Assembly: GCF_025965085.1 (NCBI RefSeq)
Contig: NZ_JAOPXP010000136.1
Coordinates: 1 to 46,411, forward strand
From: Marmoricola sp.
Lineage (GTDB): Bacteria > Actinomycetota > Actinomycetes > Propionibacteriales > Nocardioidaceae
Length of the DNA: 46,411 bases
Direction: 5' to 3'
Positions 1,978 through 10,302 of the stretch are shown piece after piece (position 1 is the stretch's first letter; each line of letters begins with the position of its first letter). Position numbers and translations under genes: made by a program. The notes beneath the pieces were generated by a model. The model was not told where the DNA came from. It worked only from the letters and a program-made list of their open reading frames with translations, and did no database searches.

Positions 1978-2018
1978 AAATACAGCGTTGTAATTCATTA
2001 AATACAGCTTTGTAATTC
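1978..2018. promoter_or_regulatory. Tandem operator-like boxes (TACA-N4-TGTA, two copies)
   Basis: Two 19-nt copies differing at one base lie at 1978-1996 and 2000-2018, 22 bp apart (about two helical turns). Each holds a TACA-N4-TGTA inverted repeat (spacer GCGT or GCTT) followed by ATTC. They sit in the AT-rich 176-bp gap upstream of the secreted amidase gene. A dimeric regulator binding both copies is the simplest reading; the regulator is unknown. Confidence 0.6.
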
Positions 2019-2088: not shown

Positions 2089-2103
2089 CATGGAGTGCCT
2101 TCT

Positions 2104-5100
2104 ATGCGATTCAGTCGTGCCCGCTACGTCACGTTGTGCCAGCAATCCCTGGTCACGGCTGCCGTTCTTGCCGTCGGAGTGTCCGCCGCCGGCGTCAAGA
2201 CCCTCGACATCGTCCCGCAGCCCGGCCCGATCGCCGGGGCCCAGGAAGTGGCACCCGGAGGGCTGGCCCGCGAGGCATTGGCCGACCACGGCGTCACCCG
2301 TCCAACGAGCCTTCCGGGGAAGGCTCGGGTCGACGTCGCCCCGGTGACGCCCACGGTGCGCGAGGTCAAGGTGACCGGTATCTCCGCGAGGGCCCAGCAG
2401 GAGGCCCTTCCGGAGGCCCAGCAGAAGACCGGACGGCAGATGGCCCCCGGGGCGAGCACCCGGAAGGTGGCTCCCGACCCGAACCGGCGCCAGGAGCCCA
2501 CCTCACCGCAGACGCCGACCCACAAGACGACGCCCACCACCAAGCGCCTGGTGGCACTGTCCGACCCACAGCCGGTGACGGGCTACGCCACGGTCGGGGT
2601 CACCTGGAAGCAGGGGGTCCGCTACACCGACAACCTCGGCATCGAGGTTCGCACGAAGAAGGGCCGCACCTGGTCTGCGTGGACGGTGCTGGGCCACGAC
2701 GAGGAGGACGGACCCGACAGCGGGTCCTCGGAGCTGGACGGCGCGAGGTCGCGCCCCGGCACCGACGCGCTCGTCATCGGCGACGTCGACCAGGTGCAGA
2801 TGCGTGCCGAGACCTCCGACGGGACCACCCCGCCGGACCTCGAGCTCGCCGTCATCGACCCGGGGGTCGGGAAGCTGACCACCGAGGCCCCCGCGATCGA
2901 CACCTCGAAGCTGCCGGGGCCGCAGGCGAGCGCAGCGACGTCCTCGAGCGACGCCGCCGGCCAGCCGCAGGCAGCAGCCGACTCCGGGGCCCAGGACACC
3001 GCGGCCCTCAGTGCGATGAAGGTCGCGCCCAAGCCCTACATCTACTCCCGTGCCCAGTGGGGTGCGAACGAGAAGATGCGTGACCAGTCCCAGCCCAGCA
3101 TGGGCACGGTGAAGGCCGGCTTCATCCACCACACGGTGAACGCCAACGACTACACCTCCGAGCAGGTGCCGGCGCTGCTCCGCGGCATCTACGCCTACCA
3201 CACGCAGTCACGGGGCTGGCGAGACATCGGCTACAACTTCCTCGTCGACCGGTTCGGCCGCATCTGGGAAGGCCGCTACGGCGGTGTGGGCAACCCGGTC
3301 GTCGGTGCCCACACCCTCGGCTACAACGAGGTGTCCTTCGCGATGTCGGCGATCGGAAACTTCGACATCGCCGCGCCGCCGCAGGCCGTGTCCGATGCCT
3401 ACGCCCGCCTGTTCGCCTGGAAGCTGTCGCTGTACAACATCAAGGCCAACGCGACGAGGATCTTCGTCAAGGACCGGTACATGCAGGCGATCAACGGCCA
3501 CCGGGACGTCGGGCAGACCGCGTGTCCGGGGCGCTACCTCTACGCCAAGATCCCTGCCATCCGGGTGGCCGCGCAGCGCATCCAGGACGCGGCACAGTCG
3601 GGAACGGCGCCCACGACCCCGCCACCGGCTACTCCACCCCCGGCTCCCGCGCCGGCTCCGGCCCCGAACCCCGACGTGTTCACCTCGCCGACCCAGACCC
3701 CGCGACCGGCCACGACCCAGCCCTCGGGCCTGCGCTTCCCGCGCTCACTGAACCTCGCGGGTGACGCCGCCCCCGAGCTGGTGCTCAAGTCGAGCACCGG
3801 TGCCGTGCAGGTGTTCCCCACCGGGGGGCAGACGGGCTTCCTGCCGGCGGTCAGCACGCCAGGTGCGTGGTCGGGCCTCGACCAGGTCGTGGCCGTCGGT
3901 GACCTCAACGGCGACGGCAAGGGTGACGTTCTCGGACGCACGCGCTCGGACAGGCTGGCCCGGGTCTATTTCGGCGACGGCGCGGGCCATGTCTCCACCG
4001 CGGGGGTGAACGCCACGCCCACCTTCCGCTACGCCAACATGATCATCGGTGCAGGAGACTGGAACCGCGACGGTCGCAACGACGCGTTCATGCGGGACAC
4101 CAAGACCGGCTGGCTGATGCTGGTCCCCGGGCTCGGGAACGGCCGGTTCGGTCGGCCGGTGCTGGTCAGCAAGTCGTGGAAGAACTTCACCGCCACCGGT
4201 GTGGCCGGTGACCTGACCGGCGACGGTCGCGCGGACCTCGTGGCCATCAGCCGTGACGGGTTCGTGTACGCCGCCGCTGCCACCACCACCGGTGGGCTGT
4301 CGAGGTTCTCCAAGCGCCAGTGGGTCGGAACCCGGTTCAACGCGCTCGTGGGCGGGGCGCGCGACATGAACGGCGACGGCTTCGGCGACGTGGTCGTGCG
4401 GTCCGCCAGCACCGGGGAGGCGTTGATCCTGCCCGGGGCGCGCGGCACCTTCGCCAAGGCGCTCGGCCCGTTCGACGCGGCCAGGGGGCTGGGCCACCTG
4501 AGCGCCGGTCAGATGACGGGCGGCTCGCAGCCCGACCTGGTCGGCACCAACAGTGCCGGCACCGCGCTCCTCGTGGTGGCCAACAACGGCCTGGTGAACC
4601 TCAAGGCGCCGCTGCCGTCGACTCTCGCGCGTGCGGACATCACCCAGCTGCTCACCGTGGGTGACTGGAACCGGGACGGTCGCGGCGACGTCATCACCCG
4701 CCAGACGGGCGGCGACTCGCTGGTGCTGCAACCGGGGCTGGGCAACGGAGGGTTCGGCACGCCGACCGTGATGAGCCGTGGCTGGAAGGGCTTCACCAAC
4801 CTCGCGGCCGTCGGCGACGTCACCGGCGACTCGCTGCCCGACCTCGCCGGGAGGACCGCGACCGGGAAGACGCTCATCTTCCCGGGCAACGGCGTGCGCG
4901 GGTTCAAGGCTCCGCTCGTGGCGCCCAACTTCCTGAAGTCCTACAACCAGATCGGTCTCGGGTTCTGGAAGCCGCAACGGCTGCCAGGGTCGGCGTACAT
5001 CAGCTCCGACGGCTCGTTCGTGCCGTTCAAGGGGACCGGGGTCGGTGACCTCGCCGATTACGACTGGGTCATCGGTCCGGGCGACGTTGACGGCGACGGA

Positions 5101-5223
5101 CGCAGCGATCTCGTCGTCAGGGACGCCGCCGGCACGTTGTGGCTGCTGCCCGGCACCGACATCGGCTACGGCACCCGGCGCGTCATCGCCACCGGGTTCA
5201 GCGGATACTCGCTCGGCGGCTGA
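2104..5223 (+). CDS. Secreted N-acetylmuramoyl-L-alanine amidase (PGRP/Amidase_2) with FG-GAP/VCBS repeats
   Basis: A 1039-residue exported protein that should cleave the amide bond between MurNAc and the stem peptide. ATG 2104 is preceded by GGAG at 2092-2095. An N-terminal signal peptide is visible (Arg-rich start, then SLVTAAVLAVGVSAAG). Residues ~30-310 are low-complexity, followed by a PGRP-like amidase domain (~310-490) with Zn ligands in HHTVN (H342/H343), GHRD (H466) and TACPG (C474), and the typical WRDIGYNFLVDRFGRIWEGR. A Pro/Ala linker (~500-545) leads to a C-terminal half with at least seven FG-GAP/VCBS units of the DxNxDGxxD kind (GDLNGDGKGD, GDWNRDGRND, GDVDGDGRSD), expected to form a calcium-binding beta-propeller. 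It stands alone, with its own promoter region. Confidence 0.93.
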   Translation: MRFSRARYVTLCQQSLVTAAVLAVGVSAAGVKTLDIVPQPGPIAGAQEVAPGGLAREALADHGVTRPTSLPGKARVDVAPVTPTVREVKVTGISARAQQEALPEAQQKTGRQMAPGASTRKVAPDPNRRQEPTSPQTPTHKTTPTTKRLVALSDPQPVTGYATVGVTWKQGVRYTDNLGIEVRTKKGRTWSAWTVLGHDEEDGPDSGSSELDGARSRPGTDALVIGDVDQVQMRAETSDGTTPPDLELAVIDPGVGKLTTEAPAIDTSKLPGPQASAATSSSDAAGQPQAAADSGAQDTAALSAMKVAPKPYIYSRAQWGANEKMRDQSQPSMGTVKAGFIHHTVNANDYTSEQVPALLRGIYAYHTQSRGWRDIGYNFLVDRFGRIWEGRYGGVGNPVVGAHTLGYNEVSFAMSAIGNFDIAAPPQAVSDAYARLFAWKLSLYNIKANATRIFVKDRYMQAINGHRDVGQTACPGRYLYAKIPAIRVAAQRIQDAAQSGTAPTTPPPATPPPAPAPAPAPNPDVFTSPTQTPRPATTQPSGLRFPRSLNLAGDAAPELVLKSSTGAVQVFPTGGQTGFLPAVSTPGAWSGLDQVVAVGDLNGDGKGDVLGRTRSDRLARVYFGDGAGHVSTAGVNATPTFRYANMIIGAGDWNRDGRNDAFMRDTKTGWLMLVPGLGNGRFGRPVLVSKSWKNFTATGVAGDLTGDGRADLVAISRDGFVYAAAATTTGGLSRFSKRQWVGTRFNALVGGARDMNGDGFGDVVVRSASTGEALILPGARGTFAKALGPFDAARGLGHLSAGQMTGGSQPDLVGTNSAGTALLVVANNGLVNLKAPLPSTLARADITQLLTVGDWNRDGRGDVITRQTGGDSLVLQPGLGNGGFGTPTVMSRGWKGFTNLAAVGDVTGDSLPDLAGRTATGKTLIFPGNGVRGFKAPLVAPNFLKSYNQIGLGFWKPQRLPGSAYISSDGSFVPFKGTGVGDLADYDWVIGPGDVDGDGRSDLVVRDAAGTLWLLPGTDIGYGTRRVIATGFSGYSLGG

Positions 5224-7909: not shown

Positions 7910-8884
7910 CTACGGAGCGACAGGTGAGATCGTGACGCTGGCCGCGAGGGCCGTGTCGCTCCGGGGTCGCCAGCCGTGGGCGTGCGCCACCAGCCGGACC
8001 CGTTCGGCGGCCGTCACCTGGTCCCGCGCGCTCTCGGGCAGGTGCACGCGCACGGAGCCGCCCTGGATGGCTCCGGAAAGCCCGCACGACGCCAGGGCGC
8101 GGACGAGCTCGTTGGCTGCGGCAGGGGCCCCGAAGCAGTCGCCGTCGCTCCCGCGCACGGCGGCCATCACCGCCTCGCGGGCGCCGAGGGCGAACATGTC
8201 CTGCTCCCGCGGGCGGATCAGCGCACGCGCCCCGGGGCCGTGCTCGCCTGCCGGGAGCAGTCGCGAGCCGAGGCCGCGCACGACGGCCACCGGCCGGCCG
8301 CCGAGCTTCCCGGTGACCAGCTCGCCGACGGAGGCGAGCTCGTCGGCCACCGCGGGCGCGGTCACGGAGAGCGCGTTGCCGTAGGAGTCGACCCTGCCCG
8401 CGTGGTCCTCGAGCGGGTCCAGGCCCGCGACACCGACCGCCAGATCGGTCTGGCCGGTTCGCCAGGCGCGACCGGCGGTGTCGGTGATGACGACGGCGAC
8501 GTTGTGGCCGGTCTCCTCGAGGACCCGCTCACGCAGGGCGCGGGCCGACGCGTCGGGGTCCTTCGGCAGGAGCACGACGTGGCCCGAGGTGACGTTGGAC
8601 GCGTCGACGCCGGCAGCGGCCATCACCAGTCCGAGGTGGTTCTCCACGATCCGGGCCGGCCCACGCTGCGCCACGACGCGGACCGTCTCGTCGCTGATGG
8701 CCTCCTCGCGGTCACCGCTGCGGACGCGTCCCTCAGCCTTGCTGACGACCTTGCTGGTCACGAGCACGACGTCGCCCTCGGCGAGGTCCAGCCCGCAGAG
8801 CAGCGCACCGAGGTCGGTGCCCTGCGCGATCTCGCCGATCCCCTCCACGGCCCACGCTCGAAGTCCGCTCACGGCGGCCGTCAT
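7910..8884 (-). CDS. fbiB: Coenzyme F420-0:L-glutamate ligase (FbiB N-terminal/CofE type)
   Basis: A 324-residue protein with the CofE ligase fold that adds gamma-linked glutamates to F420-0 using GTP. Visible CofE features are [17 protein letters not shown], the [21 protein letters not shown] region and the [20 protein letters not shown] stretch. ATG 8884 overlaps the fbiA stop (ATGA), so the two are translationally coupled. The mycobacterial FbiB is about 448 residues, with a C-terminal flavin-binding nitroreductase domain that reduces dehydro-F420-0. Here the CofE part (~245 residues) is followed by only ~80 residues with no recognisable nitroreductase core. The tail contains [14 protein letters not shown] and ends [16 protein letters not shown]. 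Confidence 0.9.
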
Positions 8885-9915
8885 CGCACGAGGTCGAGCG
8901 CCGCGACCACCATGTCGGCCGTGGCGTCGTGGTCGGTCATCCACAGGGGTACGGCGCGGCAGCGGATCCCGGCCGCGTTCACCCGGGCCACGGCGGCCTC
9001 GTCGACGGTGTCCACGAGCCAGCCGTCGAGCAGGCCACCCACCGCCCGGGCGCCGTAGTGCTCGGCGACGCCGGCCGCCGAGACCTCCACGCCGATCACC
9101 TCGAGCAGCTGGCGGGCCATGCCGTGCACGTGGTCCTGACCGATGATCCCCGAGACGCCGACGACCGGCGCCTTCGTGGCCGCGAGGGCGTCACGGATCC
9201 CGGGCACGCCGAGGATCGTGCCGACCGAGACGACCGGGTTGGACGGAGGCACGAGGACCAGGTCGGCCTCGCCGATCGCCTCGAGCACCCCGGGTCCCGG
9301 CTTGGCCTCGTCGAGACCGATCGGCACCACGGCATGGGCGAGGACGGCGGCCTGGTGCCGGATCCAGTACTCCTGGAAGTGCACCGCCCGACGCTCCCCG
9401 CTCGCGGGGTCGTCGATCACCACATGGGTCTCGACCCGGTCGTCGGTCATGGGGAGCAGCTCTACTCCTGGCTGCCAGCGGCGGCACAGGGCGGCGGTCA
9501 CCTCGCTGAGCGGGAAGCCCGCGTCGAGCATCTGCGTCCGCACGAGGTGGGTCGCGATGTCCCGGTCGCCGAGGCCGAACCAGGTCGGCTCCACGCCGTA
9601 CGACGCAAGCTCCTCCTTGGCGTTCCAGGTCTCAGCTCGGCGCCCCCACCCCCGCTCCGTGTCGATGCCGTCGCCGAGGGTGTACATCACGGTGTCGAGG
9701 TCCGGGCACACCTTGAGGCCGTGCACCCAGATGTCGTCCGCCGTGTTCGCGACGACCGTCACCGCGGTGTCCGACGAGGTGCGCTCGACGAGCCGCAGGA
9801 CGCCTTGGAGGAAGCGCGCTCCACCGACACCGCCGGACAGGACGGTGATGCGGGCGGGCAGCCGGGCAGGGGGCTGCGAGGGTTGGCTGGGGGGCATCGC
9901 AGATGAATCGGACAT
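8881..9915 (-). CDS. fbiA: 2-phospho-L-lactate transferase / phosphoenolpyruvyl transferase (CofD/FbiA)
   Basis: A 344-residue transferase that joins the lactyl-2-phospho (or phosphoenolpyruvyl) guanosine intermediate to the deazaflavin Fo, giving (dehydro-)F420-0. The N-terminus has [17 protein letters not shown], the diagnostic CofD motif, followed by [20 protein letters not shown] and [13 protein letters not shown]. The [20 protein letters not shown] and VGVSGIIGQ stretches are also typical. The start is uncertain: ATG 9915 gives an 18-residue polar leader before the fold, and ATG 9897 is possible; neither has a ribosome-binding site. It is the first gene of the fbiA-fbiB pair and is divergent from whiB across 132 bp, as in mycobacteria. 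Confidence 0.94.
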
Positions 9916-9983
9916 GGATGTAAGTGTGGACCAGTTGGCCCAATACCAGACTTTCGCTTGACTTCACGGCTACGACAGGCATG

Positions 9984-10003
9984 TAATCACACCAGTGTGA
10001 TTA
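9984..10003. promoter_or_regulatory. 20-bp perfect palindrome in the fbiA-whiB divergent promoter region
   Basis: TAATCACAC and its exact inverse GTGTGATTA flank a 2-bp spacer (CA). It is centred about 54 bp before the whiB start and 78 bp before fbiA. Nine-base perfect arms are strong evidence for a homodimeric regulator site. Position suggests control of whiB, possibly of fbiAB too. The regulator is not identified. Confidence 0.75.
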
Positions 10004-10047
10004 GCAACTCGGTCCGTCAGGATCGAAGGGTCGAAGAGGGGCAAACC

Positions 10048-10302
10048 GTGCGCGAACTGTATCTGCTCGAGGGCGAACCGGAAGACGCTGGATGGCAGGA
10101 GCGCGGGCTGTGCGCTCAGACCGATCCCGAGGCGTTCTTCCCCGAGAAGGGTGGCTCCACCAGGGAGGCCAAGAAGGTCTGCCTGACCTGTGACGTGCGC
10201 CGGGACTGCCTGGAGTACGCACTGGAGAACGACGAACGCTTCGGAATCTGGGGCGGGCTCTCCGAGCGGGAGCGCCGCAAGCTGAAGAAGCAGGCCGTCT
10301 GA
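10048..10302 (+). CDS. whiB: WhiB-family iron-sulfur transcription regulator (WhiB/WhmD/WhiB2 type)
   Basis: An 84-residue protein with the four [4Fe-4S] ligands C22, C45, C48 and C54 (C-x22-CLTC-x5-C), the RFGIWGG turn (65-70) and the basic C-terminal DNA-binding tail ERERRKLKKQAV. The sequence GWQERGLCAQTDPEAFFPEK is nearly that of Streptomyces WhiB and mycobacterial WhmD/WhiB2, which control septation with sigma factor and partner proteins. GTG 10048 is chosen because GAGGGG (10036-10041) precedes it at good spacing; an in-frame start at 9958 would place the operator palindrome inside the coding region. Divergent from fbiA and convergent with the zincin-like gene, as in mycobacteria. Confidence 0.95.
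   Translation: MRELYLLEGEPEDAGWQERGLCAQTDPEAFFPEKGGSTREAKKVCLTCDVRRDCLEYALENDERFGIWGGLSERERRKLKKQAV

Follow-up and report, generated by a model that had tools for sequence, protein, structure and literature searches.

The 20-bp palindrome at positions 9984-10003 of the window (the whole 46,411-nt stretch of Marmoricola DNA analyzed here) is very probably the operator of a MerR-family repressor of the McdR/BldO type acting on the whiB promoter. We read it in this way because its core matches the published McdR motif with 0 mismatches, it lies on a promoter, it is conserved, and the genome carries an McdR-like gene preceded by the motif expected for feedback. McdR/BldO operators of whiB, a gene at the center of the choice to divide or to sporulate, are already known, and the palindrome is most probably another instance of this kind. 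Judged by their sequences, related sites are traceable across most of the sampled actinobacteria, in two overlapping positions.

The palindrome, TAATCACAC-CA-GTGTGATTA, is located between fbiA/cofD (8881..9915, minus strand, ATG at 9915; TIGR01819, 392.8 bits) and the divergently oriented whiB (10048..10302, plus strand, GTG start; PF02467, E 8.3e-28), 68 bp from the fbiA ATG and 44 bp from the whiB GTG. The window gene probably belongs to the WhiB/WhiB2 class, an assignment suggested by the set of matches and not by a class model. An earlier note on this DNA had given the palindrome exactly as it reads in the window, and the perfect 9-base arms with the 2-bp spacer in the whiB-fbiA intergenic region are real. 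Its statement that such an arrangement is rare by chance was too strong: the window contains 6 perfect palindromes with 9-bp arms and a 2-bp spacer, including the one at 9984-10003 (the other five are GC-rich), whereas 30 sequences simulated under a first-order Markov model had 0.9 on average and 5 at most. Since the window is not short of palindromes of such a length, the argument for the site has to come from conservation and from the motif match; conservation sets the palindrome at 9984-10003 apart. A second match with up to 3 mismatches was not found in the assembly of this genome (3.55 Mb, 95.88% complete).

In mycobacteria, the essential MerR-family protein McdR (Rv1830) is described as a repressor of whiB2 that acts via AATnACAnnnnTGTnATT around the whiB2 start; alteration of the complementary arms or of the spacer length abolishes this regulation, alteration of the spacer sequence does not, and mcdR itself is activated by WhiB2 through cGACACGc (as far as described in PMC9040748). 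For ResR/McdR on the whiB2 promoter of M. tuberculosis a K d of 0.33 ± 0.15 µM has been reported, and the protein is stated to be kept across actinobacteria at 50-80% identity (PMC10336103). In the window, the general form of this operator, AATnACA-N4-TGTnATT, is found at 9985-10002 (no strand assigned) as AATCACA-CCAG-TGTGATT, with 0 mismatches to AATnACAnnnnTGTnATT; this stretch, the core of the palindrome, is the candidate operator. With up to 2 mismatches allowed, the motif has 3 matches in the window vs. a mean of 0.04 in shuffled sequences. The likeness to the mycobacterial operator includes the exact motif, the whiB gene downstream and the overlap with the promoter: the published location is around the whiB2 start, and here 9985-10002 overlaps a -10-like TGTAAT. 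The mycobacterial operator has been characterized by binding measurements; that of the window, from Nocardioidaceae, is a predicted one.

A repressor dimer would be expected to sit on AATCACA and TGTGATT, 7-bp arms in inverted orientation that are separated by the 4-bp spacer. The bound dimer would cover the -10 box together with the region of the probable start, thus keeping RNA polymerase off whiB. The repression would limit the amount of WhiB, which works with WhiA to turn on cell division. WhiB, in turn, would raise mcdR expression via a cGACACGc box 5' of mcdR, and a negative feedback loop would result.

The putative whiB promoter consists of a -35-like hexamer TTGACT (9958..9963, plus strand) and the -10-like hexamer TGTAAT (9982..9987, plus strand), with an 18-bp spacer between them; the latter hexamer is kept in relatives. 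Among 60 fetched loci of the class, 56 possess TTGAC followed by TGTAAT or TCTAAT 5' of whiB, the spacer between TTGAC and TGTAAT is mostly 17 or 18 bp in the relatives among the loci listed, and many, not all, class promoters continue as TYCANNNRTGTCRTT after the -10-like hexamer. The position of the whiB transcription start in the window is predicted from this arrangement: as the left arm of the palindrome is part of the -10 box, the transcript should start inside or after this arm. That bears on the alternative that the whiB mRNA begins with a hairpin acting at the RNA level; an 8-bp stem could indeed form over the palindrome on the transcribed strand. We judge such a hairpin highly improbable, given a left arm placed in the -10 box and an unremarkable fold of 9984-10060 (z -1.76; 10 of 200 shuffled sequences folded equally well).

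The conservation of the site was followed in 24 genomes of the same genus (the present one included) using a 21-letter pattern, TGTAATCACAYNARTGTGRTT, with up to 3 mismatches allowed. The pattern occurs at one place per genome in all 24, on the whiB contig and just 5' of whiB (the placement relative to whiB was compared by eye), and control matches were zero. The absence of conservation upstream of whiB in close relatives had been named beforehand as the finding that would speak against a functional site; the site is present in every one of them. The palindrome as such is less constant. Its arms are perfect over 9 bp in 3 of the 24 genomes (G000, G009 and G014, in which the place matches TGTAATCACAYNARTGTGRTT on the reverse strand too), the 16-bp core ATCACACNNGTGTGAT is present in 4 of 24, and the right arm most often reads GTGTGGTTT in the genus. 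The earlier note had seen in the palindrome a site placed to control whiB and perhaps fbiAB. The first part of this proposal gains sequence support from the conservation in 24/24 genomes and may well hold; a role of the palindrome as a control element of fbiAB, and hence a division-redox link, is hypothetical.

On the scale of the class, a whiB match (E <= 1e-20) was found in 118 of 118 genomes. A class pattern, TGTAATTYCANNNRTGTCRTT, which was derived from whiB promoters themselves, has a match (up to 1 mismatch) in 49 of the 118, once in each, the present genome not being among them. All 49 matches lie on the same strand as the whiB match, 10-347 bp 5' of it, and the reversed TGTAATTYCANNNRTGTCRTT used as a control gave 0 matches.

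Other regulators of whiB have to be considered as owners of the operator, namely BldD-c-di-GMP, BldM, WhiA, BldC or MtrA. In Streptomyces, whiB is described as a direct target of BldC (PMC6428758), BldM (PMC4125116) and BldD (PMC4151990), and the TCAC/GTGA half-sites of the palindrome resemble those of BldD and BldM. The spacing differs: TNAC-N5-GTNA for BldD, TCAC-N8-GTGA for BldM and TCAC-N6-GTGA in the window. The box of BldD, a repressor of whiB in Streptomyces, has similar half-sites, but the spacer in the window is one base too long for it, in line with the earlier remark that the palindrome resembles the BldD consensus without fitting its spacing; the group I site of BldM, an activator of whiB in Streptomyces, has 8 bases between its half-sites vs. 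6 here. In 9916-10047 there is neither a BldD box within 1 mismatch nor a BldM group I site, TCACcCgnncGgGTGA, within 5 mismatches. This motif test is insensitive, as of three 420-bp Streptomyces whiB upstream regions used as controls only one contained an exact BldD box and only one a BldM site within 4 mismatches. The WhiA motif GACAC (for WhiA sites and Wbl proteins, see PMC3781837 and the review PMC6282962, respectively) is absent from both strands of 9916-10047. WhiA and BldD, proposed earlier as possible binders, therefore fit poorly, with the insensitivity of the box search in mind. BldC is described to use direct repeats, AATTXXXX(C) (PMC5859096), whereas the window has an inverted repeat. 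Taken with the exact match to the McdR motif, an operator of one of these other regulators appears improbable.

The reading as an McdR-type operator was extended to the class by comparing whiB promoters. From 170 loci, 9 without a promoter call and 8 duplicates were removed, which left 153 distinct promoters; these were aligned on TGTAAT, and the 18-bp McdR motif was compared with them at every offset from -36 to +13. Few mismatches were seen in two registers only: register A at offset -14 (family mean 2.27 mismatches) and register B at offset 0 (3.05). All other offsets had family means of at least 7.48, and no case within 2 mismatches occurred there. In register A, the left arm lies in the -35/-10 spacer and the right arm on TGTAATT; in register B, the left arm lies on AATT and the right arm over the start region. 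The two registers share the -10-like hexamer. In the window, register B is the perfect site at 9985-10002, and register A is present in a weak form, TACGACA-GGCA-TGTAATC (9971..9988, no strand assigned, 3 mismatches), 14 bp 5' of B.

Within 2 mismatches, at least one register is present in 150 of the 153 promoters, with A only in 62, B only in 62 and both in 26. Within 1 mismatch a register was found in 97 promoters, and neither was found at this level in the other 56. Perfect A sites occur in 10 promoters (families f2, f23, f29, f32 and f35; these and the following labels are our own), and perfect B sites in 13 (the genus of the window, genus g2 and family f7). Left arms of the TAATCACA type were seen outside the genus of the window, among the loci listed, at L146 and L147 (g2) and at L251, L266 and L280 (f7), a distribution that suggests repeated evolution of the B-type operator.

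Because the TGTAAT anchor supplies part of each match, independent evidence comes from the far halves of the registers only. Their family means are 2.17 mismatches for the left half of A vs. 4.86 elsewhere, and 1.73 for the right half of B vs. 4.90. Furthermore, the two far halves are anticorrelated (Spearman -0.81 over 39 groups and -0.80 over 35 families; 3000 permutations gave no value as low), a figure that is optimistic, as the groups were treated as independent and relatedness was not corrected for. These numbers bear on a simpler explanation, according to which only the core promoter is conserved and the palindrome arises from the -10 box combined with chance symmetry. TGTAAT being common to the -10 box and the site, the scarcity of perfect 9-bp arms in the genus (3/24 genomes) and the five other palindromes of this type in the window agree with it. 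However, the far arms, which lie outside the -10 box, match the McdR half-sites better than the background does, and they trade off between groups (with the same reservation as to relatedness), so that we regard this explanation as a poor candidate.

Few loci depart from the two-register scheme. When the 9 loci without a promoter call were scanned separately, a site within 2 mismatches was present in 7 (in L270, solely at the far edge of the segment). L173 and L176 each have two sites at a distance of 14 bp; in L176 the weaker of the two has 3 mismatches. The 570 bp examined 5' of whiB at L273 and L282 (family f18) contain no McdR-type site within 3 mismatches; a longer leader and the loss of the site are candidate readings. 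The genomes of both loci carry an McdR-like match. Loss of the regulator was considered for the families lacking the right arm of B and was rejected: McdR-like matches are present there, and these families carry register A.

The repressor BldO of Streptomyces has a similar place in the regulation of whiB. According to PMC5485038, this MerR-family protein represses whiB in S. venezuelae, where whiB is the single ChIP-seq target; its footprint of ~40 nt, centered on TGxAATTxCA, extends over the -10 region and the start of whiBp2, and bldO is activated by WhiA/WhiB. The BldO operator thus resembles the window site in the gene (whiB), in the position over the -10 box and start, and in the repressor family. 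In the BldO system, the repressor gene is activated by WhiA/WhiB (PMC5485038), and the McdR counterpart is activated by WhiB2. The BldO repeat is not found exactly in the window, where TGTAATCACA at 9982-9991 differs from it by one mismatch and its center is 7 bp 5' of that of the palindrome. Registers A (9971-9988) and B (9985-10002) together span 32 bp with the center at 9986.5, which is also the center of TGTAATCACA, and a footprint of ~40 nt centered on 9986.5 would cover both. The BldO repeat may therefore mark where two overlapping McdR-type sites, A and B, meet, and BldO is probably the Streptomyces counterpart of McdR. In the literature searched, we found no paper naming BldO together with McdR, Rv1830 or ResR. 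The published account (PMC9040748, so far as it covers this) locates the McdR operator around the start, outside the promoter spacer; in other families of our sample it occupies that spacer (register A).

The gene for the regulator was sought by means of a gene order that we take to be that of mycobacterial mcdR, i.e., FHA protein, FtsR, BFN-domain gene, MerR gene. In the genome of the window (L299), a MerR gene (MerR_1, PF13411) is located behind the genes for an FHA protein, FtsR (NF050798) and a BFN-domain protein, and the same order is present in an f7 genome (L287) and in an f19 genome (L298; f19 was taken as Streptomyces-like from its promoter sequence). Over the aligned parts, the MerR protein is 63% identical to that of f7 (114/181) and 67% to that of f19 (110/163). 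The assumed gene order and the comparison with these two proteins suggest that the gene is McdR-like. It would be the ortholog of mcdR, with a product predicted to bind the site in the window and to repress whiB. A comparison of the protein with NCBIfam profiles named no family above the cut-off, and the search for the solved Rv1830 structure returned only distant MerR relatives. An HTH sequence pattern missed 10 of 30 loci. McdR-like matches at E <= 1e-8 are present in 116 of the 118 class genomes, which agrees with the published conservation of ResR/McdR across actinobacteria; the two genomes without such a match are drafts in 970 and 150 contigs.

The published WhiB2-response motif (cGACACGc) occurs as CGACACGC 5' of the mcdR-like gene in the genome of the window, which in this respect resembles the McdR/ResR circuit, where the activator motif precedes mcdR. 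Among 20 mcdR-like loci, 8 have CGACACGC on the forward strand and a further 4 on the reverse strand; it is absent from the forward strand in all three f19 (Streptomyces-like) loci.

Just 5' of the -35 hexamer, TACCAGA (9944-9950) represents a TA[GCT]CA[GC] box, which was observed in 93 of the 153 promoters; this box could belong to the divergent fbiA promoter or serve as an activator site. The fbiA gene was detected beside 70 of the 153 promoters and not detected beside 83, many segments being too short to decide. Within the same limit of segment length, box and divergent fbiA occur together at 59 promoters, fbiA alone at 11, the box alone at 34 and neither at 49.

Two further McdR-type sites are present in the window, AAATACA-GCGT-TGTAATT (1978..1995) and AAATACA-GCTT-TGTAATT (2000..2017), each with 1 mismatch and without an assigned strand, the second beginning 22 bp after the start of the first. 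This tandem pair lies just 5' of a gene for an N-acetylmuramoyl-L-alanine amidase with FG-GAP repeats (2095..5223, plus strand; PF01510 (Amidase_2) and PF13517; GTG at 2095 or ATG at 2104). Of 23 genus relatives, 20 were fetched and three with short contigs were left out; 18 of the 20 have clusters of 2-3 sites (up to 1 mismatch, spacing 22-33 bp), 6.7-9.0 kb from the whiB site and ~1 kb before the amidase signature, a short sequence signature being the only means by which the amidase was recognized in relatives. In the segments of G004 and G018, both the cluster and the signature were missing. In the related genera g3 and g5, 9 of 9 genomes have a 1-mismatch site ~1 kb before the amidase signature; in the remaining 11 of the 20 genomes of this comparison no such site was seen, and the f19 genome has an amidase-like signature. 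The amidase gene is thus a candidate second target, and McdR may act at additional places.

With the 21-letter pattern one site per genome is found, and with the 18-bp motif (up to 1 mismatch) there are 4-10 per genus genome, 167 in the 24 genomes. The reversed 18-bp pattern gave 0 matches, which is an imperfect null because of the stop-like triplets in it. With 4-10 sites per genome, the regulator probably serves more genes than whiB, in contrast to BldO as seen by ChIP-seq.

On balance, we favor the view that one repressor family (McdR = BldO) controls whiB across most of the class through two overlapping registers sharing the -10 box, that lineages switch between the registers yet almost always keep one, that the window is an extreme B-type case, and that the same regulator also acts on peptidoglycan hydrolase genes of Nocardioidaceae through tandem or single sites. 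The two-register layout, the trade-off and the amidase target go beyond the published accounts that we found, to the extent that these cover the subject. If this view is correct, the literature on BldO in Streptomyces and that on McdR/ResR in mycobacteria describe one circuit, with the regulator present in 116 of the 118 class genomes sampled; the operator would offer a natural experiment on how a binding site can be shifted by 14 bp and still control its gene; and the repressor of whiB would be tied to cell-wall amidases, which is a prediction.

The genome of the window has 9 places matching the 18-bp motif with up to 1 mismatch. One of them is a perfect motif, AATTACA-GATA-TGTAATT, at positions 1501-1518 of L329 (G000:C57:12399-12416); it precedes by 74 bp the start of the gene encoding an Rv2525c-like glycoside hydrolase/peptidoglycan-binding protein, which hints at a cell-wall regulon.
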